From Parundibacterium terreum (GTDB taxonomy: Bacteria > Pseudomonadota > Gammaproteobacteria > Burkholderiales > Burkholderiaceae_D): a DNA stretch of 64,000 bases. Below, in pieces: positions 1 through 34,332 of this stretch. The notes beneath the pieces were generated by a model that had not been told where the DNA came from, made no database searches, and worked only from the letters and a program-made list of their open reading frames with translations. Location of the stretch: the NCBI RefSeq assembly GCF_014636315.1, contig NZ_BMED01000007.1, forward strand, positions 124,001 to 188,000, in the 5' to 3' direction. The position numbers and the translations under genes were made by a program. Each line of letters opens with the position of its first letter. Position 1 is the stretch's first letter.

Positions 1-645
1 CAGATGATGCTGCCAGTGTCGCAGTGCGCCTTCATCACCATTATCCACTTTTATTGTATCGAACAATGTGCGCGCACCTTGGTGGCGCAGCCAGTGTTCC
101 AGCCTGTGGCCGAAGGCGCAATACTGTTCATAGCTGCTGTCGCCCAATGCCATCACACCGTATTGCAAATGTGCCAGCGGCAGGGCCTGCCCCATCAGTT
201 TGCGGGCAAAGCCTGCCGCGCTGTCCGGTGCATCCCCTTCTCCTGTCGTGCTGACGATGAACAGGATACGGCTTGCGGCATCCAGCATGGCTTTGTCCAG
301 CTTTGCCAGTGACAGCAAGCGCACCGCCATGCCGCCGTCCTGCAAGGCCTGCGCAGTCTGCAAGGCGATTTGTTCTGCATAACCGGTCTGGCTGGCATAA
401 ACCACCAGCATCGCGTCCTGGCTGCTGCCTTCAGCAGTTGCCAGTTGCAGGCCGAGTTGCTGTTTATTCCTGGTTTTCAGATAAGTGACGAAACAAAATG
501 CCAGGTAAGCCAGCACCAGCAATGCCGCCGTGAACATGCGGCCATTCTGGCTATCCAGCAAGTGGCTGCGGCTGATGCTGTATGTGGAAATCGCCGCCAA
601 TGCCAGGCTGGCAATCCACAGGTTTTTGGTCAGCAGCGATTTCAT
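1..645 (-). CDS. Flavodoxin-domain reductase, sulfite reductase flavoprotein type (3' part cut by window edge)
   Basis: An open frame of 215 codons starts at the ATG at 645 and runs off the left edge without a stop. Residues 1-60 hold two probable membrane segments (about 7-24 and 38-57). A flavodoxin domain follows from about residue 78, with the FMN phosphate loop YASQTGYAEQ and the stretches IVSTTGEGDAPD and MALGDSSYEQYC, typical of the flavodoxin half of sulfite or cytochrome P450 reductases. A FAD/NADPH-binding FNR domain would be expected in the missing part. It is the last visible gene of the Fur-box operon, 37 bases after apbE, and closely resembles the flavodoxin domain of the fusion protein at 31690-34332. 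Likely role: bringing electrons from NADPH to the membrane; the substrate is unknown. Confidence 0.85.
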   Translation of the reverse strand, partial: MKSLLTKNLWIASLALAAISTYSISRSHLLDSQNGRMFTAALLVLAYLAFCFVTYLKTRNKQQLGLQLATAEGSSQDAMLVVYASQTGYAEQIALQTAQALQDGGMAVRLLSLAKLDKAMLDAASRILFIVSTTGEGDAPDSAAGFARKLMGQALPLAHLQYGVMALGDSSYEQYCAFGHRLEHWLRHQGARTLFDTIKVDNGDEGALRHWQHHL

Positions 646-682
646 CGTGGTATCTCTTAATGATGTCTTTTGAAGTTGTAAA

Positions 683-1702
683 CTAATCCAGCATTGCTTC
701 AAATGCCGGACTCATGCATTCTTCAAAGCCTTGTGCGGTGCGGCTGACAAAATATGCCGCGATATTCTGGCTGCGCGCATAGTCCATTCCCTCTTGCACA
801 CCGAGCACGGTAAGCGCGGTGGACAGGCCATCGGCGATCATGCAACTGGTGTGCAATACTGTGACCGAGGCCAGCGCATGCTCTACCGGGTAGCCGGTGC
901 GGGGGTCTATCGTGTGCGAATAGCGCCTGCCCTTGTGTTCGAAAAATCGGCGGTAGTCTCCTGACGTCGCCACGGACATTTCATGCAGTGCGATCAGGTT
1001 TTTTTGTGGCGATCCGTCATGTGTTGCAGCGCTGCTCAGAGGCAAAGGCTGTTCCAGTTCTACCCACCATGGGTCATTGTCCGGCTTGCAGCCATAGCCC
1101 CGCAATTCACCGCCGACCTCGACCAGGTAGCTTTGCACGCCTTGCTCCTGCAAGTATTGCGCAACATGGTCCACGCCGAAGCCCTTGGCGATCGAAGACA
1201 AGTCTATATACACGCCGCCGGGCTGCAAGGCGCGCTGTTCCAGGCGGTCCAGTTTGACCTCCCGCCATCCCCTGGCGGCGCGGGCATGGTCGATTGCAGC
1301 AGCAGCGGGGGCCTGGTCATGCCTGCCGCCGGGGCCGAAGCCCCACAGGTTGACCAGCGGGCCTACGCCGGGGTCGTAAGCGCCGTTGCTTTGCTGCGCG
1401 ATATATAGCGCATAATCCAGCACCTTGAAAAATTCCGGTGGCAATGCATGCCAGCTGCCGGCTTCGGCGCGGTTGAAGCGGCTCAGCGTAGAGCTGTCCA
1501 GCCAGGTGCTCATCTGTTCGACCACGCTGTCCAAGCGCTGCTGTATGCCTGCATGCAGTTGCTCCAGCGCCAGGTGATCCGGACGCACGAGCTTGACCGA
1601 CCAGGTCGTTCCCATGCTGTTACCCGCCAGGCTGTCTATCGTTGCAGATGGCGGGATGGATGGCGGTTGTGCCATCGTCAATGGGATCAGGACGCGATTC
1701 AT
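683..1702 (-). CDS. apbE: FAD:protein FMN transferase (ApbE family)
   Basis: 339 residues, the normal length for the family. ApbE moves FMN from FAD onto a Ser/Thr of target proteins, using Mg2+. Visible signatures are NSMGTTWSV near residue 30, the SSIAKGFGVD loop near 170, the motif HTIDPRTGYPV near 275 and the following MIADGLSTAL segment. Known ApbE proteins usually act outside the cytoplasm with a lipoprotein signal, but here the N terminus (MNRVLIPLTMAQPP) has only a very short hydrophobic run. A TGA lies directly before the ATG, so the start cannot be moved upstream. The likely substrate is the DUF2271 protein two genes upstream, which has a DGVSGAT motif. The ribosome site is weak, and a GC hairpin separates it from the preceding gene. 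Confidence 0.92.
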   Translation of the reverse strand: MNRVLIPLTMAQPPSIPPSATIDSLAGNSMGTTWSVKLVRPDHLALEQLHAGIQQRLDSVVEQMSTWLDSSTLSRFNRAEAGSWHALPPEFFKVLDYALYIAQQSNGAYDPGVGPLVNLWGFGPGGRHDQAPAAAAIDHARAARGWREVKLDRLEQRALQPGGVYIDLSSIAKGFGVDHVAQYLQEQGVQSYLVEVGGELRGYGCKPDNDPWWVELEQPLPLSSAATHDGSPQKNLIALHEMSVATSGDYRRFFEHKGRRYSHTIDPRTGYPVEHALASVTVLHTSCMIADGLSTALTVLGVQEGMDYARSQNIAAYFVSRTAQGFEECMSPAFEAMLD

Positions 1703-1732
1703 TCAGGCCGGGGAAGAGTCATTTGGTGATAT

Positions 1733-1759
1733 GGCGGACGGCAAGTCTTGCCATCCGCC
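1733..1759 (-). other. GC-rich intercistronic hairpin between the DUF4198 gene and apbE
   Basis: An inverted repeat with arms of about 11 bases (GGCGGAtGGCA pairing with TGCCgTCCGCC, one internal mismatch) lies in the 83-base gap. No T-run follows on either strand, so it is more likely an RNA stability or partial attenuation element than a full terminator. Confidence 0.5.
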
Positions 1760-1785
1760 CGTGCTGCACAAGATACTTGAGCCGC

Positions 1786-2619
1786 TTATTGCGGCAATAC
1801 TTCCAGTGTCGCGACATAGCTGGCGCGGCGCTCCTTGGCCGGTTTGGCAGCCTTGTCGTCTTTCAGCGAGGCTTCCAGCCAGTACATGCCGGCGGTAGGC
1901 CAGGTAACGCTGAATTTGCCATCTAGGTCAGTCGTTGCCGAAATTTCGTTCAGCTTGTTGCGGTAGCGTATGCCGCCGCTGATCACGCTGACTTTGACAT
2001 TGGCGGCCGGTTTGCCGTCTATCATCAGGCGGAAGCTGGCAGCCTCGCCGACGAACAGATCTGTCGGTGCGGTTATTGTTTGCATTTCCAGGCCGGAACC
2101 GGTGATGGACAAGGCCTTGCCGCCCGGTTTACCGGCAGTGACAAAGGTTTCTACACGGCCGCTGCTTTGCGTGACCTGCAAGTCTTCCGCATTGGCAGGC
2201 ACATCTTTCGCAAATGTTTCTGCCGTGCCGCGCCAGCGTTTGGTCTGGCCGTTTTCCTTGTAGCTGGCAAACATCGCATTGTTGACGATGCCCAGCTTGT
2301 AGGTGCCGCCCTGCGACAGCTGCACGTCGAAGGTGCTGCGGTATTTGCCGGTGCTGGCGTTTTCCGCCTTGGCTTGGGTGCCATCAGGCGCAGTGATGAC
2401 CAGATTATCCAGTTTCAAAGGCTGGTGGTCGGCGAAGAAAACATCGGTGGATACCGCTGCATCGACGGTGACCCAGGCTTTTTCTGCCGGCAGTGAAGTA
2501 CCGGAAGGCAGCAGCCACATGCGGTGCGCGCTGGCGCTCAATGGCGTAAATGCCGCAGCAATGGCGGCGACGGTAGCTGTCAGCGTGACTGCCCGTTTGA
2601 ATGTACCGGATAGTGTCAT
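1786..2619 (-). CDS. Secreted DUF4198-family protein
   Basis: 277 residues with a clear signal peptide (hydrophobic 10-26, cleavage expected after SASA at 31). The mature protein would begin HRMWLLPSG, so histidine 32 becomes the free N terminus, as in the metal-binding NikK/CbtK members of DUF4198. The C-terminal half (about 165-270) has an Ig-like strand pattern with a GKPAANVKV segment and a closing SYVATLEV strand. A strong ribosome site (GGAG, 6 bases before the ATG) supports the start. It lies 26 bases downstream of the DUF2271 gene in the iron-type operon. Role inferred: periplasmic metal or cofactor handling for the flavin redox proteins; the ligand cannot be read from sequence. Confidence 0.85.
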   Translation of the reverse strand: MTLSGTFKRAVTLTATVAAIAAAFTPLSASAHRMWLLPSGTSLPAEKAWVTVDAAVSTDVFFADHQPLKLDNLVITAPDGTQAKAENASTGKYRSTFDVQLSQGGTYKLGIVNNAMFASYKENGQTKRWRGTAETFAKDVPANAEDLQVTQSSGRVETFVTAGKPGGKALSITGSGLEMQTITAPTDLFVGEAASFRLMIDGKPAANVKVSVISGGIRYRNKLNEISATTDLDGKFSVTWPTAGMYWLEASLKDDKAAKPAKERRASYVATLEVLPQ

Positions 2620-2645
2620 GGCGTTCTCCTTTATTGTTATCGATA

Positions 2646-3155
2646 TCAGGACTTGATGTTCAGGGATACCAGGCCCAGCTCATCGCCGCCCTGTACTTTA
2701 ACGTTCTGTTCGCCCTTGGCTTGCCATTTGAACGGTACCTTGACGACTTCACGGCCGCCGCCTTCGCGCGCAGCTTCCACCACCAATTGGTAGTCGCCTG
2801 CAGGCAGATTGGCCAGCACGCCTTTATCGGAAGAGAAGCTCAATTGATGTTCGCCGACCGGACGCGTTGCGCCGCTGACGCCATCCACCGGCATTTGCAG
2901 TTCGCGGCCGCTGCGGCGCCACCATTGGCGGAGATCCTTCAGCCACTTATTGCCTTCGTTGTCCTTTTTCTTCATGTCATACCAGACCGCCAGATTGCCT
3001 GCGACGCTTTGGTCCGGTTTTTCTATCCAGATGGCGACGTAAGGGCGGTGGTATTCGGCCACATTCAGACGCGGCACTTCGACTTTCAGATTCAGATCGG
3101 TAGCCATGACTGGAGCGACCAGGCCGGTCAGGGCAACGGAGAGCAATACACGCAT
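2646..3155 (-). CDS. Secreted DUF2271 protein with a flavinylation motif
   Basis: 169 residues: signal peptide 1-18 (cleavage after PVMA), then a DUF2271 beta-sandwich. Residues 91-97 read DGVSGAT, matching the D-x-x-[ST]-G-A-[TS] motif of proteins that receive covalent FMN from ApbE; Thr97 is the predicted attachment site. An ApbE gene sits two genes downstream in the same operon, which supports this. It is preceded by the PepSY membrane gene and followed after 26 bases by the DUF4198 gene. Likely role: a periplasmic one- or two-electron flavin carrier between a membrane reductase and an iron-related acceptor. The family assignment and motif are firm; the electron acceptor is inference. Confidence 0.85.
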   Translation of the reverse strand: MRVLLSVALTGLVAPVMATDLNLKVEVPRLNVAEYHRPYVAIWIEKPDQSVAGNLAVWYDMKKKDNEGNKWLKDLRQWWRRSGRELQMPVDGVSGATRPVGEHQLSFSSDKGVLANLPAGDYQLVVEAAREGGGREVVKVPFKWQAKGEQNVKVQGGDELGLVSLNIKS

Positions 3156-3234
3156 GTTAAACCTCAGTAGTAATGATAGAAAAATTTGGACAGACAGGGC
3201 AAATTACAAAAACAGATGCGAGAAAAACAGGATG

Positions 3235-3888
3235 CTAATGAATCAAGACAATCGCCAGCAACAAGGGCACCAGCAGACCGAAGCCGACGATGGGCCAGGT
3301 AGTGGGGCGGTTGCCGGAATGCAGTTGCAGCAAGAACAGACCGGTAATGCAAAAAACCAGGCAGGCGCCGGCAAAAATATCGATGAACCAGGGCCATGCG
3401 GCGCCGGTATTGCGGCCTTTGTGCAAATCATTGAAATAAGAGACCCAGCCGCGGTCGGTCAATTCGTATTCCAGGTCGCCGCTTTCCAGGTCTACCCTGA
3501 GCCAGGCGTCGCCGCCCGGACGCGGCAGCGATACATACACTTCTTCCTTGGACCATTCCGCCGCCTGCTCGCCAACGCTGATCGACAGTTGCTTGCCCAG
3601 CCAATCGCGCACAGGCAAGGGCAGCGGATCTTTGGCGCCATGCTTTTGCGCCTGCTGCAGGCTGGCCAGCTGCGACACCAAAGCTTCTGGTACCTGCGCC
3701 GTCTTCTTGGTGACTTGCGGATGCGCCTCGATCTGTGCCGAATGATTCAGCGTAATACCGGTGGCGGCAAACAGCAGCATGGCGATGATGCACAGCGCAG
3801 AGCTGATCCAATGCCACTGGTGCAAATGCTTCAGCCAGAATGAGCGGCGTTGCTGATTGGATTGTTTGGTGATGGCTATTTCGCTCAT
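3235..3888 (-). CDS. PepSY-associated transmembrane protein
   Basis: 217 residues. TM1 lies at about 28-46 and is preceded by histidines (HLHQWHW), with a further His at the end of the helix (LNHS). A periplasmic PepSY-like region of about 110 residues follows, then the conserved NDLHKGRNTGAAW stretch and two C-terminal helices (about 160-185 and 195-216). This architecture resembles bacterial membrane redox proteins that may carry heme or pass electrons across the membrane. It is the first gene of the operon, 60 bases downstream of a near-consensus Fur box. It probably links the cytosolic flavodoxin-type reductase (last visible gene) to the secreted DUF2271 protein. Heme ligation by the conserved histidines is inferred. 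Confidence 0.85.
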   Translation of the reverse strand: MSEIAITKQSNQQRRSFWLKHLHQWHWISSALCIIAMLLFAATGITLNHSAQIEAHPQVTKKTAQVPEALVSQLASLQQAQKHGAKDPLPLPVRDWLGKQLSISVGEQAAEWSKEEVYVSLPRPGGDAWLRVDLESGDLEYELTDRGWVSYFNDLHKGRNTGAAWPWFIDIFAGACLVFCITGLFLLQLHSGNRPTTWPIVGFGLLVPLLLAIVLIH

Positions 3889-3947
3889 GGGAGTCTGGAC
3901 ATGCCTGCGGCAGGCGTCTTGGGGCCTTGGCGCCGCTCAATTGTAAA

Positions 3948-3962
3948 TGATAATAATTCTCA
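3948..3962 (-). promoter_or_regulatory. Fur box upstream of the PepSY-DUF2271-DUF4198-apbE operon
   Basis: TGATAATAATTCTCA matches the 7-1-7 Fur consensus (TGATAAT-N-ATTATCA) at 13 of 14 informative positions. It is embedded in an AT-rich stretch at 3945-3975, 60 bases before the first gene. Iron repression of the operon is a strong inference. Confidence 0.8.
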
Positions 3963-3975
3963 TTATATATCATTT

Positions 3976-4480
3976 ATTTGCAGGAAATAAACCCGTATAA
4001 ATACGCACTAGTAGAAGATTTGTAACGTTCTTTGCCAGAACGACCCGGATTGTAAAGATACTGTCCGCGAGGAAAGGGGCTAAAGATTGTGCCGGCCGAG
4101 CATGAGGAAACCCCCTGGCCCGTTCACCTAGTACACCGTGAAGGCAAAAAGCGGTTCGTCTAAGGTGCGTACTGCATCGATATGGTCGCAGAGAAGTTGC
4201 GGGCCAATAAGCAGCTTAATAAGCAGCTCAATTAGAGCTCGCTTTTTCTCATCATGCGCGGCGCGAAACAGAGTATTGCGCCCTACATCATTCCTGTCTT
4301 AACTGAGCGTCATTACTATGGATTTGTCTGCAGTAAATGCGGCAAGTAAGAAAAACCTGTCCATTCTGTTTCGAAAAAAAGGAAGTGTCGGCAGCGCAGG
4401 AAGCAATCCGGGCTGTTCACTTCGAATTGTTACTCTTGTCCTGCTTCAGTGAAATTGCAGCGGACTTTACGGAGAATATT
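3976..4480. other. Intergenic region with a short tandem repeat
   Basis: About 500 bases without a convincing gene between the Fur operon and the secreted hydrolase. The only structure seen is a tandem pair of 12-mers (AATAAGCAGCTT/C) at 4206-4229. An upstream in-frame ATG at 4337 exists, but the hydrolase clearly starts at 4481. Confidence 0.5.
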
Positions 4481-5452
4481 ATGAATCTGAATAAAATAAA
4501 CAGTCTTGCCAAGTTTGTTGCAGCGTTGTCGCTGGCGTTGGCAGCAACAAATTCAATTGCCGCGGCAACGCCAATTGTTTACCGTACTGTAACGGTCGAT
4601 GGCCAGCAGATCGCCTATCGCGAAGCCGGCTCGCAGAACCAGCCTACCTTGCTGTTACTGCATGGGGTACCCAGCTCATCGAGAATGTACGATGGTCTGA
4701 TGCGCCAGCTAGGGCGCAAGTATCACCTGATCGCTCCTGATTATCCTGGTTTCGGCAATAGTAGCGCATCTGACCCGGAGCAGTTCTCCTACACCTTTGA
4801 TCATCTCGCTGAAGTTATGCAAAAGTTTGCGGATACAGTGGGTGTTCAACAATACGTATTGTTCATGCAGGACTACGGTGCGCCAGTAGGCATGCGCATG
4901 GCCCTGGCCAGACCTGGCGCAGTACAAGGCCTCATCTTCCAGAACGGTAATGTCTATGACGAAGGCCTGGGGGCAATGTGGGCCAAGCGCAAAGCTTTTT
5001 GGGCGGACCGCGCTGCGCATGAGAAAGAGGTTATCGAGGCTCAGCAATCGCTGGCGGTGACGAAAATGCGCCATCTGGGCGATGATCCTGATACAGAGGC
5101 CTACGATCCCGATCTGTGGATGGACGAATATGCGTACCTAAATCGCCCTGGACAGGGAAAAATTCAGGCTGCGCTGATTTATGACTATCAAAACAATCTG
5201 GCTTCTTATCCGGTGTGGCAAAGATGGCTGAGGGAACATCAATTGCCGACATTGGTTTTATGGGGCAAGCATGACCTGGCTTTCACTGTCCCTGGTGCTG
5301 TCGCTTTTCGTAAAGATAACCCGGCTGCTCAAATTGAAATTCTGGACGGCGGTCACTTCGTGATGGATACGCGATTGAGTGAAGTGGTGACAATCACTGA
5401 TCAGTTCATGCACAAGCATCAAGCCCGGTTTTCCAAGGACTCACGTCGATAA
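4481..5452 (+). CDS. Secreted alpha/beta hydrolase, epoxide hydrolase/haloalkane dehalogenase-like
   Basis: 323 residues from the ATG at 4481, chosen because GGAG lies 7 bases upstream and the product then begins with a typical signal peptide (cleavage near SIAAA, residue 28). The oxyanion motif HGVPSSS is followed by the nucleophile elbow MQDYGAPVG, where the nucleophile is Asp rather than Ser. Later come the GKHD acid segment and GGHFVMD with the catalytic His. An Asp nucleophile is characteristic of epoxide hydrolases and haloalkane dehalogenases. Periplasmic export is unusual for those enzymes but known in some proteobacterial members. The gene stands alone, and its substrate is not predictable. 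Confidence 0.88.
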   Translation: MNLNKINSLAKFVAALSLALAATNSIAAATPIVYRTVTVDGQQIAYREAGSQNQPTLLLLHGVPSSSRMYDGLMRQLGRKYHLIAPDYPGFGNSSASDPEQFSYTFDHLAEVMQKFADTVGVQQYVLFMQDYGAPVGMRMALARPGAVQGLIFQNGNVYDEGLGAMWAKRKAFWADRAAHEKEVIEAQQSLAVTKMRHLGDDPDTEAYDPDLWMDEYAYLNRPGQGKIQAALIYDYQNNLASYPVWQRWLREHQLPTLVLWGKHDLAFTVPGAVAFRKDNPAAQIEILDGGHFVMDTRLSEVVTITDQFMHKHQARFSKDSRR

Positions 5453-29294: not shown

Positions 29295-31463
29295 TCAGAA
29301 ATCGATGATCCCGCGCAAAATGAATTGTCTGGCGTCTCCCACCGCCACATAGATATTGCTGCCGGCGGAAGGGTAATAGGTTTTGTCTAGCAAGTTCCTG
29401 ATATTCAATTGCAGGTGGGCAGAGTGCCCGGCCAGCGTCGTGTCATACGAAGCAAATGCATCTACTACATGATAGGGATCAAGGAAGAAGCTGTTGGCGC
29501 TGTCGCCGGCACGGCTGCCTACATAACGCACGCCGGCTCCGGCACGCCATTGATCGCGGTTGGCACTGCGGTCGAAATCATGCGTGATGAACACCGAGGC
29601 ACTCTGCCGGGCGACGTTAGCCAGGCGATTGCCCTGCAGCTTGGGGTCTTGTGTGACCTTCGCATCGGTGTACGCATAACTGCCTATGAGTTTCCACTGT
29701 GGTGCAATCTCACCGGCAACATCCAGTTCCAGGCCCTGTGAGCGTGCCTTGCCCGCTGCGCGCACGAAGGTGTCGCCGTTGACAACCTCGGATACCTGCA
29801 CATTCTGCTTGTCGATGTTATACAGCGCTGCAGTAGCGGTGATCCCTTTCGGCAAGTCCAGCTTAGCGCCCACTTCCCAGGATTTACCCTGTTCCGGCGG
29901 CAGCGCATCGATGTGGCTGGCGATAGAGGTATTTGGCTTGAAGGATTCGCTATAGCTGCTATAGAGCGACACTGCAGGGTTGAGCAGGTAGACCACGCCT
30001 ACACGCGGTATCAGCTTGTTGCCGGAGACATCGGTATTGATATTGAAGGGACGGCCCTTGCCGGCAACTTCATCGTATTGCTGGTAGCGAACGCCGGCTT
30101 GCGCTATCCATTGCTCGCTCAAGTGTACCGTGTCCTGCGCAAACAACGAGTAGGCGTGCAGCTTGTCGGTCTGGTCGCTATCCGGTGCGCTGATCGTAGT
30201 GGAGTTCGGCAACAGGCCGTATACCGGCTTGTAGATATTGAAGCTGGTATTGTTGGTGCCGCGTATCAGGTCGCGCCGGTAGATATTACTGTCTTCAAAA
30301 TCAAAGCCCAGCATCACGTCATGCCTGATTTCACCCAGCTTCAGCTTGCCGGTGATATCGCTTTGTACCGCATGCTCCTGGCTGACAGCACCGCGCGTAC
30401 CGTCAGGGCGGCGCGTGAGCACGCCGGTGACAGGATTCAGCGATACGGTGCGCGCCTGGAAGTCATCATAGCGGTTGCGATTGTAGCTATAGGCAAAGTT
30501 GGCTGTCCATTGCTGGTTCAGCTTGTGTTGCGACTGCACGGTGAAAAAATCGGAATCGCCTATGCTGCGGTTATATGCTTCGTCCAGCCTTTCATCGCGT
30601 GGGATATTCACAGGTTTGCCGGTGCGGTTGTCGATAACGGTGCCACGGTCGAAAGGCTGTTCGTAATTGGTATGCTCATACGAGATGCGCACCGTATTGT
30701 CGCGGCCGTACCAGGCCAGCGAAGGCGCGACCACGAGCTGGCGGCTGTCGCCGAAATTGCGCCAGTAATCGCTGTTGCTATAGTCGGCGATCAGGCGGTA
30801 GGCCAGGCCTGAGCTGCCGATGGCGCCGGTCAAATCTACCGATGCGCCGCCGCCCAGGTCGCTGGCTGTCAGCGCGACCTGGGCCTGGGTAGTTAATTGC
30901 GGCTTCTTGGTGACCATGTTGACTACGCCGCCCGGGTCCATCGTGCCGTACATGATGGAAGAGGGCCCCTTCAGGACCTCGACGCGTTCGGTGGTATAGG
31001 TCAGGTTGCGCGCCAGCACCGTGCGTATGCCGTCACGCAGGATGGAGCCGTCGCGATTGAAGCCGAAGCCGCGCTTGATCAGCGCATCCTGTGTACCGCC
31101 CAGCGTATTGGCCTGCGTGACGCCGCTGATGTTGTACATCGCTTCATCGATGTTGCGTATCAACTGGTCTTGCATTACCTGGGCCGGCACGACGCCGACC
31201 GATTGCGGCGTTTCCAGTAAGGCGGCATCGCTGCGGGTCGCGGTGGACGCGCGCTTCGGCTGGTAGCCGCGTTCCTGCGCCTTTTCGCGAATGATGATAT
31301 CGGGCAGATTCAGCGAAGAAGCATCGGCGGCCTCTGTTTGTGCTGCGGGAGATGCAGATGTCGTGGATGTTGCTGGCCCTGCAGGCAGGGCCTGGCTATG
31401 GGCTAAGGGCGACAGTGCGAAGGAAAGCAGCGTGCCGCTCCCCAATACTTTGAGCATGCTCAT
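29295..31463 (-). CDS. TonB-dependent siderophore receptor
   Basis: 722 residues: signal peptide with cleavage near AHSQA (24), then a plug domain (about 80-190) with LLETPQSVGVVPAQVMQDQ and EVLKGPSSIMYGTMDPGGVVNMVTKKP, typical of ferric-siderophore receptors. A 22-strand barrel follows, ending RQFILRGIIDF with the terminal Phe needed for outer-membrane assembly. There is no N-terminal signalling domain for an anti-sigma partner. A Fur box lies 26 bases upstream, and the PepSY-flavodoxin reductase is divergent. It takes up a hydroxamate- or catechol-type siderophore; the ligand cannot be named. Confidence 0.95.
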   Translation of the reverse strand: MSMLKVLGSGTLLSFALSPLAHSQALPAGPATSTTSASPAAQTEAADASSLNLPDIIIREKAQERGYQPKRASTATRSDAALLETPQSVGVVPAQVMQDQLIRNIDEAMYNISGVTQANTLGGTQDALIKRGFGFNRDGSILRDGIRTVLARNLTYTTERVEVLKGPSSIMYGTMDPGGVVNMVTKKPQLTTQAQVALTASDLGGGASVDLTGAIGSSGLAYRLIADYSNSDYWRNFGDSRQLVVAPSLAWYGRDNTVRISYEHTNYEQPFDRGTVIDNRTGKPVNIPRDERLDEAYNRSIGDSDFFTVQSQHKLNQQWTANFAYSYNRNRYDDFQARTVSLNPVTGVLTRRPDGTRGAVSQEHAVQSDITGKLKLGEIRHDVMLGFDFEDSNIYRRDLIRGTNNTSFNIYKPVYGLLPNSTTISAPDSDQTDKLHAYSLFAQDTVHLSEQWIAQAGVRYQQYDEVAGKGRPFNINTDVSGNKLIPRVGVVYLLNPAVSLYSSYSESFKPNTSIASHIDALPPEQGKSWEVGAKLDLPKGITATAALYNIDKQNVQVSEVVNGDTFVRAAGKARSQGLELDVAGEIAPQWKLIGSYAYTDAKVTQDPKLQGNRLANVARQSASVFITHDFDRSANRDQWRAGAGVRYVGSRAGDSANSFFLDPYHVVDAFASYDTTLAGHSAHLQLNIRNLLDKTYYPSAGSNIYVAVGDARQFILRGIIDF

Positions 31464-31488
31464 GGCTATATGTTTTCTTGAATATAAA

Positions 31489-31503
31489 TGAGAATTATTA
31501 GCA
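31489..31503. promoter_or_regulatory. Fur box between the TonB receptor and the PepSY-flavodoxin fusion
   Basis: TGAGAATTATTAGCA matches the 7-1-7 Fur pattern at 12 of 14 positions. It lies 26 bases upstream of the receptor gene and 187 bases upstream of the divergent reductase gene, so it may control both. Confidence 0.75.
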
Positions 31504-31689
31504 TTTATGGTAACATGCGGCTTGCTCCTGTGTCAGCAATTCATGCATAAGCGCTTGTACTTATTGCCCTATCTTTCTCGACTCTGTATAAGAGGCGGCG
31601 TGAGGGCCTAAGGGCCTGCGTGATGCAGAAGCAAGTAAACGCCACGCCACTATCGCAATAGCCACGCAGCAGACACGCAGCAGATACTC

Positions 31690-34332
31690 ATGTTTAAAAA
31701 AATCTGGTTTCAAATCCACTGGTTCATAGGCATTACCGCCGGCACCATCATGATCATCATCGGCCTGACCGGTGCCTTGCTCAGCTTCCATGAAGAAATA
31801 GTGGATGCACTCAATCCCGGCATCGTGCATGTAAAACCGCAGACGATGGCGGTGCTGACGCCGGAACAATTGTTGAGCAAGGTAAGGGCGCTGGATCCGG
31901 AGCGCCGTATCGTCACGCTGGCAATGTCGGCCGAAGCCGGAGAATCCGCCAAGATCACCTATGCGCCGCCAAAGGGCGTGCGGCGCGGTGAAATCCGTTA
32001 CGTCGACCCTTATACCGGCGTGTTGCTGGAGCGCCCGCTGGGCCAGGACTTCTTTGAGTGGATAGAGCGCCTGCACCGCTGGCTGCTGCTGCCTACCGAT
32101 ACCGGCAAGCTGGTGGCAGGCATGGTTGCCGCGTGCCTGTTTGTGCTGGCCTTGTCCGGGCTGTACCTGCGATGGCCGCGCAAGCCCCTGTCCTTGCGGG
32201 CCTGGCTGAAGCTGGACTTTGCATTGACCGGTCGTTCCTTCCTGTGGAACCTGCACTCGGTAATGGGCACCTGCGCGCTGCTGCTATACCTGATATTTAC
32301 CGTCACCGGCATGTACTGGGCGTTTGACGTCGTCAAGCTGGGCATCAATACCCTGGCCGGTGAAACGCTTGCGCCGAGGCGGGCACCGCCGGTGCAGGCA
32401 GATAAATTCAAGGTGGGCAAGAAGGCCGAAGAACAGATTGCCGTACCCGATCTGACTTTGCTGTGGAACGTATTCCAGAAAGAAGGCGGGGCTTACAGCA
32501 AGCTCAGCATGCGCATGCCCGACAAGGCCGGCCAGCCCATACAGATCACCTACCTGGACCCTGAGCCGCCGCATGAGCAGGCACGCAACCGCATGTCGAT
32601 TGACCCCGCCACCGGCAAGGTAACGCAGAACCAGCGCTACGCAGACAAGACCACCGGCGGCAAGGCCATCAGTGCCATCTATCCGTTGCACATGGGGACT
32701 TATTTCGGCTTGCCGGGCCGCATCATCATGACGCTGGCGGCTTTGATTCTGCCGATGTTTTCCATTACCGGCTGGATGCTGTACCTGGACCGGCGCCGCA
32801 AAAAGCGGCAGATACGTGCGGAACAGGCGATCTTGCGCGCCGGCCGCCGCACACAGGCAGGGGCAGTCGGGTCAGCAGCAAAACAATTGCCTGAACAAGT
32901 GCTGCTGGCTTTTGCCACACAGTCCGGCCGTGCCGAAGGGCTGGCCTGGCGCACCGCATCTGCTCTGCAGACCGAAGGCGTGGATACGACGGTGATGTCA
33001 CTGGCGCAACTGGATACCGACAAGCTGCGCCACTATCAGCGCGTGCTGTTCATCGTATCGACCTTTGGCGAAGGCGAGCCGCCGGATGCGGCGCGCAAGT
33101 TCGCCAGGCAGTTGTCGCACCAGGCGGGCAATTCACTGGCGCATGTGCAGTATGGCTTGCTGGCTCTGGGCGACAGGAATTACCAGAAATTCTGCGGCTT
33201 CGGCCACACGCTGGATCACTGGCTGCATAGCCAGGGAGCGCAAGCGCTGTTCCCGATGATAGAAGTGGACAACAATGACGCCGAGGCCTTGGCGCGCTGG
33301 CAGAATGTGCTTGCGCGGCTGGCAGGAAAAACCGAGATCCGGATGGACGCCAATCCTGCACCGGCGCTGCAGGAGCAGGATTACCAGGATTGGCAACTGG
33401 TGGAACGGCGCTTGCTGAATCCGCACAGCCAGGGCGCACCCATTTTTCACCTTGAATTGGAGGTCACTGCGAATGGCGCTGCAAATGCACCATCAATGGA
33501 GCGATCAACGCAGCAGTGGCAAGCAGGTGCGCTGGCCGAGATCGTGCCGCGCCATGCACCGGACCGTATCGCATTCTTTCTCAGCTGCACCGGCCTGGAT
33601 GGCCAGGCCAAGGTGAAACACCTGGGAGTAGTGCGCACCCTGAGCGAAGCGCTGGCACGCAGCCAGTTGCCTGCGCCGCAAGTGGCGCTGGGTTATGTGA
33701 CGCCGCAGCAATTGGCGGATACCCTGCAGCCGCTGGCCTCCCGCCGCTATTCGGTTGCTTCGCTTGCCGGAGAAGGGCGTCTGCATCTGCTAGTCAGGCA
33801 GAGCCGCCATGAAGACGGCCTGGGTATTGCATCCGGCTGGCTGACTGAGTATGCCGCAGTGAATGACAGAATAGAATTGCGCGTGCTGCGAAATCCGGGG
33901 TTTGAACTGATTGACGGGGATGGTCCTTCGATTTTCATCGGCAACGGTTCCGGCCTGGCCGGCTTGCGCGGCTTGTTGAAAGCCAGGATCGCCCAGGGGC
34001 AGCACAAGAACTGGCTGTTGTATGGCGAACGGCAGGTAGCGCATGATTTCCATCACCGCGAAGAAATCCAGCAATGGCAGGCTGACGGCATGCTCAGCCA
34101 TGTCGATCTGGCTTTTTCACGCGACCAACCGCAGCGCATCTATGTACAGGACAAGCTGCGCGAACAGGCAGAACGTTTGCTGGCATGGGGGGAACAGGGC
34201 GCAGCGATTTATATCTGCGGCAGCCTGGACGGCATGGCCGCCGGCGTGGATGCGGTGTTGACTGAATTGCTGGGCGAGGCGGCACTGGATGACCTGATCA
34301 CCGAAGGGCGTTACCGCAGGGACGTGTATTAA
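31690..34332 (+). CDS. PepSY membrane domain fused to flavodoxin and FNR reductase domains
   Basis: 880 residues. The PepSY/TM part has helices at about 11-33, 141-161, 190-212 and 343-366 with conserved histidines (FHEE, RLHRW, NLHS, PLHMG). Then come a flavodoxin domain (404-545; FATQSGRAEG, STFGEGEPPD, LALGDRNYQKFC) and a FAD/NADPH-binding FNR module (about 550-880; RRYSVAS, GNGSGLAGLRGLL, YICGSLDGMAAGVD, ending RRDVY). The whole resembles iron-regulated reductases such as Pseudomonas PA4513. It probably moves electrons from NADPH through FAD and FMN across the inner membrane, perhaps to release iron from the siderophore imported by the divergent receptor. Confidence 0.93.
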   Translation: MFKKIWFQIHWFIGITAGTIMIIIGLTGALLSFHEEIVDALNPGIVHVKPQTMAVLTPEQLLSKVRALDPERRIVTLAMSAEAGESAKITYAPPKGVRRGEIRYVDPYTGVLLERPLGQDFFEWIERLHRWLLLPTDTGKLVAGMVAACLFVLALSGLYLRWPRKPLSLRAWLKLDFALTGRSFLWNLHSVMGTCALLLYLIFTVTGMYWAFDVVKLGINTLAGETLAPRRAPPVQADKFKVGKKAEEQIAVPDLTLLWNVFQKEGGAYSKLSMRMPDKAGQPIQITYLDPEPPHEQARNRMSIDPATGKVTQNQRYADKTTGGKAISAIYPLHMGTYFGLPGRIIMTLAALILPMFSITGWMLYLDRRRKKRQIRAEQAILRAGRRTQAGAVGSAAKQLPEQVLLAFATQSGRAEGLAWRTASALQTEGVDTTVMSLAQLDTDKLRHYQRVLFIVSTFGEGEPPDAARKFARQLSHQAGNSLAHVQYGLLALGDRNYQKFCGFGHTLDHWLHSQGAQALFPMIEVDNNDAEALARWQNVLARLAGKTEIRMDANPAPALQEQDYQDWQLVERRLLNPHSQGAPIFHLELEVTANGAANAPSMERSTQQWQAGALAEIVPRHAPDRIAFFLSCTGLDGQAKVKHLGVVRTLSEALARSQLPAPQVALGYVTPQQLADTLQPLASRRYSVASLAGEGRLHLLVRQSRHEDGLGIASGWLTEYAAVNDRIELRVLRNPGFELIDGDGPSIFIGNGSGLAGLRGLLKARIAQGQHKNWLLYGERQVAHDFHHREEIQQWQADGMLSHVDLAFSRDQPQRIYVQDKLREQAERLLAWGEQGAAIYICGSLDGMAAGVDAVLTELLGEAALDDLITEGRYRRDVY

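Follow-up and report, generated by a model that had tools for sequence, protein, structure and literature searches.

A PepSY-type flavinylation operon of Parundibacterium terreum and the compartment in which its DUF2271 protein may receive flavin

Gene content and layout of the operon

A 64,000-nt stretch of the genome of Parundibacterium terreum (RefSeq assembly GCF_014636315.1, contig NZ_BMED01000007.1, positions 124,001 to 188,000; referred to here as the window) carries at its start an operon of five genes, encoding a PepSY membrane protein, a DUF2271 protein, a DUF4198 protein, the flavin transferase ApbE and a flavodoxin-type reductase, preceded by a Fur box. Based on its gene content, gene order and motifs, the operon is a real, well-formed member of the published PepSY-like flavinylation system. 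The following features were identified, in order of transcription:

3949-3967, minus strand: Fur box TATAATGAGAATTATTATC, matching 16 of the 19 positions of the consensus assumed here
3235-3888, minus strand: PepSY_TM_like_2 membrane protein, 217 aa (PF16357, 2.2e-83; PF03929, 39.8 bits, cut-off 28.8)
2646-3155, minus strand: DUF2271 protein, 169 aa, with Thr97 as predicted acceptor of flavin mononucleotide (FMN) (family match 1.5e-51)
2865-2885, minus strand: codons for DGVSGAT, residues 91-97 of the DUF2271 protein (computed from the gene start)
1786-2619, minus strand: DUF4198 protein, 277 aa (family match 2.2e-53)
683-1702, minus strand: ApbE flavin transferase, 339 aa (family match 6.5e-92)
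1-645, minus strand: flavodoxin/FNR reductase, of which the N-terminal 215 aa lie within the window (Flavodoxin_1, 2.9e-28)

The family matches and coordinates agree with an initial annotation, made from the sequence alone, which had described five genes on one strand with short gaps and a DGVSGAT motif at residues 91-97; from PepSY to reductase, the gaps measure 79, 26, 83 and 37 nt. The extent of 1-3975 given there was too short: the reductase gene runs past the window start and is complete in the organism's own genome (L096:9020-10645, 541 aa), placing the true end of the operon ~980 nt past the first base of the window. The reductase consists of a hydrophobic N-terminal segment followed by flavodoxin, weak flavin adenine dinucleotide (FAD)-binding and NAD-binding domains, with Flavodoxin_1 and NAD_binding_1 over their cut-offs and FAD_binding_1 under it (26.1 against 32.3 bits). 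The ApbE protein scored 308.3 bits (cut-off 25.6) over profile positions 1-266 and aligned to the FMN transferase 5mgy at 1.2e-71.

For comparison, 154 DUF2271 loci were collected, comprising 65 named loci (close relatives by construction), 78 loci of a phylum sample (all those above the family cut-off besides that of the window, with 12 below it excluded) and 11 extra relatives. Among 44 genomes with a DUF2271 match, 11 wide-flank loci entered the main counts and 29 short loci (L067-L095) were counted apart, L092 being the same place as L205; three genomes were excluded (G008, contig end; G029, frame stops; G060, below cut-off). The DNA was closest to Undibacterium, and the DUF2271 protein shares 77% identity with its U. 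pigrum homologue. All four partner genes were located within 8 kb of the DUF2271 gene in 58 of the 65 named loci, while DUF2271, PepSY, DUF4198 and ApbE were present together in 29/29 short loci. The acceptor residue was Ser or Thr in every one of the 154 loci (Thr in 132, Ser in 22), irrespective of whether apbE was adjacent. A second class of DUF2271 proteins (class B, as distinct from class A) was represented by 21 loci (L156-L170, L172, L173 and L181-L184), in all of which the motif ends in [ST]GAS; apbE was found within 8 kb in 17 of these 21 loci, at a distance of about 2.1-2.3 kb.

Predicted Fur control and relationship to published systems

Candidate Fur sites were scored against a 19-base Fur consensus. 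The box at 3949-3967, positioned ~60 nt 5' of the PepSY gene, was the sole site with three or fewer mismatches in 64 kb, compared with 0.01 expected in shuffles, and it is overlapped by a second Fur-like match (15/19) at 3943-3961. When the 300 bases preceding the gene were shuffled 300 times, no shuffle attained 16/19, the best score being 15. Of 124 related PepSY genes, 71 were preceded by a Fur-like site of at least 13/19, compared with 2 of 124 intragenic control stretches that contained one; one PepSY locus was left out as too short. Promoter and terminator scans showed no excess over shuffles. The near-consensus Fur box noted in the initial annotation was thereby upheld as the only strong site in the window, and the operon is predicted, from its upstream sequence, to be under Fur control.

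Systems of this type have been described previously. Meheust et al. (2021; PMC8238504) reported 3220 PepSY-like clusters, 2833 of them with DUF2271 and 1500 with DUF4198, which share PepSY (PF16357/PF03929), DUF2271, a secreted DUF4198 protein and ApbE with the present operon, nothing essential being different. In that study, the DUF2271 protein of A. ursilacus was flavinylated by its ApbE, the modification being lost upon a Thr-to-Ala change, and iron reduction under Fur control was proposed, Shewanella and Caulobacter being cited as cases of repression by Fur. When compared by annotated product, the operon CC_3059-3063/CCNA_03155-03159 of Caulobacter crescentus harbours the same five genes in the same order, although in a different organism; a Phenylobacterium relative of the same family, Caulobacteraceae, is part of our comparison set (L054). 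The Caulobacter operon is repressed by iron; its promoter was bound by Fur in an electrophoretic mobility shift assay, lacZ and microarray data are available, table values of 12 to 51 are given with accompanying text on iron limitation and fur mutation, and insertions in the operon lower fitness in the presence of ethylenediaminetetraacetic acid (EDTA) (PMC3751524, PMC12004947). In Alteromonas, DUF4198/DUF2271 pairs adjoin TonB receptors that respond to iron, and the pairs are upregulated when iron is limiting (PMC7190382). DUF2271 flavinylation, Fur binding and the EDTA fitness effect, like the Ni binding by a DUF4198 protein described below, are data obtained by others on homologues and are extended to the present operon by analogy.

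The initial annotation had proposed an operon that makes a covalently flavinylated DUF2271 carrier, a claim which is right, but already known. Its iron-regulated, ApbE-flavinylated DUF2271 protein fed by PepSY and a reductase agrees with work on homologues (PMC8238504, PMC3751524, PMC12004947), and its mechanism had been published in outline, as it is covered by the Meheust, Caulobacter and Alteromonas studies; a link between the motif and ApbE adjacency, which it had put forward for checking, was not supported (see below). The operon represents a well-supported added case of a widespread, little-tested iron-reduction system.

PepSY protein, reductase and proposed mechanism

Five His residues of the PepSY protein were found to be conserved across 126 rows, namely His156 (126), His26 (125), His49 (116), His217 (116) and His190 (106). 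By analogy with FoxB and the PepSY_TM siderophore reductases, whose membrane core carries conserved His for two haems (PMC11334425), their placement on a three-helix topology suggests one set near each membrane face, which fits two haems, and the PepSY protein is a probable haem-wire. A sequence search of solved structures returned no credible relative of the PepSY protein, yielding two chance-level rows. The operon shares a PepSY_TM membrane core with conserved His with the FoxB/PepSY_TM reductases, but encodes PepSY and flavodoxin/FNR as separate genes; the fused form is encoded elsewhere in the window, at 31690-34332. The C-terminal part of this 880-aa PepSY_TM-flavodoxin-FNR protein exhibited 46% identity to the operon reductase over 538 aligned positions, and the natural fusion of both functions supports the notion that PepSY and the reductase work together.

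The fusion gene (plus strand) is divergent from a gene for a TonB-dependent receptor (29295-31463, minus strand), with a Fur-like site (13/19) at 31484-31508 between the two. This pair (29295-34332) probably constitutes a second, siderophore-linked ferric reductase.

For the operon itself, the following scheme is considered likely as a whole. Iron shortage would cause Fur to leave the box at 3949-3967, after which a cytosolic reductant, probably NADPH, would feed electrons to the membrane-anchored flavodoxin/FNR protein. From there, electrons would cross the membrane through PepSY-held haems to the FMN that Thr97 of DUF2271 carries covalently in the periplasm, and the DUF2271 protein would use them to reduce ferric iron or its chelates so that ferrous iron can be taken up. 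The N-terminal His of the DUF4198 protein may bind a divalent metal, possibly the Fe(II) formed by this reduction or else a complex of iron, and ApbE would load FMN onto the DUF2271 precursor, on balance in the cytoplasm and prior to Sec export. Points against the scheme include that iron reduction is reported for VciB only, a protein with no link to flavinylation components (PMC8238504), and that all four partners lie within 8 kb of DUF2271 in just 25 of the 78 phylum-sample loci.

Beyond the published text, the operon offers two testable points, these being the site of DUF2271 flavinylation and the possible uptake by DUF4198 of Fe(II) made by the flavoprotein. The parts of PMC8238504 consulted contain no treatment of the compartment of the operonic ApbE or of metal binding by DUF4198. 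Of most value to a specialist are the compartment of flavinylation and the His of DUF4198, and both underlying observations, an ApbE that seems to lack a normal signal peptide while its substrate has one and a likely metal-binding N-terminal His on DUF4198, had been missed in the initial annotation.

Signal peptides and the compartment of flavinylation

The ApbE protein of the window starts with MNRVLIPLTMAQPPSIPP, and a TGA stop is located directly 5' of its ATG. Signal peptides were called by rules of our own, i.e. a 12-residue hydrophobicity test applied to each possible start and a permissive 8-residue rule, with rows lacking a start codon far enough upstream scored as not exported. The window ApbE displayed no 12-residue hydrophobic segment (0.88) and no N-terminal Cys. 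Among the operonic ApbEs, the 12-residue rule assigned a signal peptide to no more than 3 of 103 in class A and to none of 17 in class B, compared with 129/129 DUF4198 proteins; the N-termini of class B ApbEs were short and polar. For the DUF2271 proteins, the same rule gave 58/127 in class A and 13/21 in class B and must therefore miss short signal peptides, the permissive rule recovering 126/127 and 19/21, respectively, together with 128/129 DUF4198 proteins. ApbEs from genomes whose DUF2271 gene has no adjacent apbE, many of them lipoprotein-like, appeared exported in 28 of the best 30 of 37 matches by the 12-residue rule and in 27 of these 30 by the permissive rule. The operonic ApbE was the sole ApbE found in 24 of 30 operon genomes (29 of the 34 linked class A phylum-sample genomes plus the organism's own), and 0 of these 24 were scored as exported, a few without a usable start being counted as negative.

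The organism's own genome encodes two other ApbEs, each adjoining a DUF3570 gene (G000:C7:11078-13048 and G000:C9:19250-20925) and each failing the 12-residue test for a signal peptide, while neither FMN_bind nor NqrB/RnfD matches were detected in that genome, leaving DUF2271 as the obvious substrate of the ApbE studied here. ApbEs beside DUF3570 genes likewise lacked signal peptides (0/22 by the 12-residue rule and 3/22 by the permissive rule, one row having no candidate start); in 8 of 30 DUF3570 loci, no ApbE was present in the 3-4 kb examined. The DUF3570 proteins themselves passed the two rules in 12/30 and 14/30 rows, respectively, a low count in which ten rows obtained no start within the tight search range; with the longest other frame, 15 of 31 rows passed the 12-residue rule, and one of the two DUF3570 frames in the organism's own genome (L277) displayed no clear signal. 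Signal peptides are well supported for DUF2271 but only partly for DUF3570.

In a phylogenetic tree of ApbE proteins (143 of 159 rows after thinning of near-copies), the ApbEs of DUF2271 operons grouped together (105 rows, SH-aLRT 97) and were separate from a small group containing the DUF3570 type, indicating that two or more lineages include ApbEs without a signal peptide. As the root is arbitrary, loss of the signal and its ancestral absence are indistinguishable.

From these sequence comparisons, the operonic ApbE seems to be cytoplasmic while its DUF2271 target is exported, and, on balance, ApbE is expected to attach FMN to the DUF2271 precursor in the cytoplasm before Sec export. Such an order of events would be feasible, since a seven-residue motif is enough for ApbE according to a review of this enzyme and since biotinylated or phosphopantetheinylated precursors can traverse the Sec pathway in Escherichia coli (PMC3418276). 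FMN would be transferred onto the unfolded precursor in the cytoplasm, the compartment of FAD synthesis, and the protein would then be exported with its flavin. We tentatively propose, at slightly less than even confidence, that the DUF2271 and DUF3570 ApbE lineages, both signal-less with exported substrates, represent a pre-export flavinylation route of which this operon is one case. If true, the operon would not depend on periplasmic FAD, and the view that ApbE works mainly in the periplasm would need a second branch. A search of mostly open-access literature retrieved no statement of flavin attachment before Sec export. The cytoplasmic ApbE of K. pneumoniae is likewise a flavin transferase without a signal peptide, but it acts on a soluble fumarate reductase of the cytoplasm (PMC12052999), whereas the likely target here is secreted.

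Alternatively, ApbE may be exported by means of a short non-canonical signal, such as the conserved RVLIP stretch, or together with its substrate, FMN being attached in the periplasm as in Nqr/Rnf; this possibility is a serious one, though we regard it as less likely than not. Several observations favour it and weigh against attachment prior to export. The window ApbE, which fails the 12-residue rule, passes the permissive rule by virtue of a weak 8-residue stretch (VLIPLTMA), as do 16 of the 103 ApbEs from class A operons (0 of 17 in class B). Two of the three class A ApbEs that pass the 12-residue rule are clear lipoproteins (L063 and L203; the third, L149, is doubtful), and 6/6 ApbE-DUF2271 fusions carry signal peptides by both rules. 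Furthermore, periplasmic location is described as essential for a classical ApbE in the review mentioned above, and the tested A. ursilacus ApbE was called signal peptide-truncated (PMC8238504), which disfavours a rule that all DUF2271 ApbEs lack a signal peptide. Periplasmic attachment is disfavoured by the contrast between operonic ApbEs and their unlinked counterparts under the 12-residue rule, by the polar class B N-termini and by the presence of a strict twin-arginine in just 1 of 148 DUF2271 N-termini.

Two further candidates were rejected. Tat export of pre-folded holo-DUF2271 is at odds with the twin-arginine count just given, a looser pattern being found in 9/127 class A and 2/21 class B proteins. 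Delayed export through a weak DUF2271 signal peptide was unsupported, as median signal strength was 1.76 for linked class A (103 loci) and 1.74 for unlinked loci of both classes (28 loci; p = 0.94), rows without a usable start being omitted; the DUF4198 control displayed a slight difference (p = 0.035).

The ApbE-DUF2271 fusions (L148, L150, L151, L153, L154 and L155), which combine signal peptides with degenerate motifs such as DGVTRPT, were the sole group of DUF2271-linked ApbEs in this data set with a uniformly exported appearance.

Probable metal binding by the DUF4198 protein

The signal peptide of the DUF4198 protein ends in A-S-A and is followed by a His at the mature N-terminus (residue 32; cleavage site predicted by eye). 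A His at the predicted mature N-terminus was present in 127 of 130 DUF4198 rows, the other three having Asp, and was invariant in the 65 closer rows. The second conserved His, residue 65 (mature position 34), was observed in 109 of the 130 rows and in at least 90% of the 65 closer ones.

A single-sequence search of solved structures yielded no relative of the DUF4198 protein, whereas a profile search retrieved chains titled Zcp at 1.5e-6. The predicted structure (predicted local distance difference test (pLDDT) score 93) resembled Zcp (PDB 9MHI-9MHO; VIA Z 20.7, root-mean-square deviation (rmsd) 4.5 over 217 residues) and Ni-bound IsDUF4198 (PDB 9GCB; VIA Z 15.5, rmsd 4.8 over 205 residues), the next unrelated entry having a Z of 6.6. 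The modelled fold is shared with both proteins, and the N-terminal His also with IsDUF4198, at about 15% identity. In IsDUF4198, Ni is coordinated by the N-terminal His together with His18, with a dissociation constant (Kd) of 18 nM (PMC12537917). The second His ligand would differ here, as the window protein has Trp at residue 49 (mature position 18 by plain count) and the family keeps His34 instead.

Based on its conserved residues and modelled fold, the DUF4198 protein probably binds a metal. For an operon that appears to be iron-regulated, Fe(II) suggests itself, and it is put forward as a guess only. Against this choice, the best reported ligand of IsDUF4198 is Ni, and Fe is not among the metals named in the section of PMC12537917 consulted. 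The operon might instead handle Ni, Zn, Co or a metallophore, DUF4198 being a specific carrier and reduction serving to release the metal. The nanomolar Ni binding of IsDUF4198 and the common fold of Zcp structures with Cu, Zn and Co are compatible with this alternative, which is nevertheless unlikely in view of the Fur box, the Fur and iron control of the same operon in Caulobacter and the apparent replacement of His18 outlined above. The gonococcal gene zcp, here equated with the Zcp of the PDB by name only, is zinc- and Zur-regulated (PMC13343924).

Flavinylation motif and its relation to apbE adjacency

The window DUF2271 protein carries both a Sec-type signal peptide, by our own rule, and an [ST]GA[ST] motif, its DGVSGAT being the single D-x-x-[ST]-G-A-[ST] sequence among the five operon proteins. 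When the mature protein was modelled with AlphaFold2 (pLDDT 84), the structure consisted mainly of strands, with the motif positioned in a loop. Sequence searches of solved structures revealed no relative of DUF2271, one returning nothing and another only the designed proteins 5cwl (2.7e-4) and 6e9r (0.0087), and a Foldseek search with the model gave nothing at E ≤0.001, the best entry being a C2 domain (3w57, 3.1e-3).

The initial annotation had suggested that the motif might be kept only where ApbE is adjacent, an expectation that was rejected as worded upon alignment of the homologues. The acceptor was retained throughout, and the strict motif occurred in linked and unlinked loci alike. Positions preceding the acceptor were looser, with SGAT, TGAT, SSAT, SAAT, SGPT and TGPT all observed and TRPT in fusions. 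Among the ApbE-linked loci of the phylum sample, 23 of 54 contained the strict motif; its absence from the remaining 31 (19/34 in class A, 6/14 in class B and 6/6 fusions) counts against the scheme proposed above. Strict-motif counts by group were as follows:

Phylum sample, class A: 15/34 linked, 10/21 unlinked
Phylum sample, class B: 8/14 linked, 3/3 unlinked
Phylum sample, fusions: 0/6
Named set: 49/62 linked, 3/3 unlinked
Eleven extra relatives: 2/7 linked class A, 2/3 linked class B, 1/1 unlinked class B
Short loci L067-L095: 18/29

Adjacency is not a clean label, since all 24 searched genomes without an adjacent apbE carry an ApbE elsewhere, compared with 7 of 14 control genomes. Several motif variants may still be modified, given that a Gly-to-Ala change in the motif left about half of the flavinylation in one substrate, according to the review of ApbE. 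It is highly improbable that the DUF2271 Thr is structural and the operonic ApbE modifies another target: the idea would be suited by the Ser/Thr being retained in 24/24 unlinked class A loci (no apbE within 8 kb; 21 phylum-sample and 3 named loci) and also in variants like DGVTGPT, but a homologous DUF2271 protein is flavinylated in a Thr-dependent manner (PMC8238504), the other four operon proteins have no motif, and an ApbE, albeit a common protein, is available in each of the 24 genomes lacking an adjacent one.

A contig labelled Gemmatimonas sp. (L019) encodes a DUF2271-apbE pair with the motif DGLSAAT, for which no PepSY, DUF4198 or reductase match was obtained within the stretch examined.

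Neighbouring genes

The upstream neighbour of the operon (4337-5452), which by eye encodes an alpha/beta-hydrolase-like protein, is divergent, and the downstream neighbour (L096:8295-8999) lies on the opposite strand. As both flanking genes are oriented otherwise, the five-gene set stands alone. The product of the downstream gene (234 aa) was judged by eye to join a DNA-binding domain to an ATPase-like (GHKL) domain.

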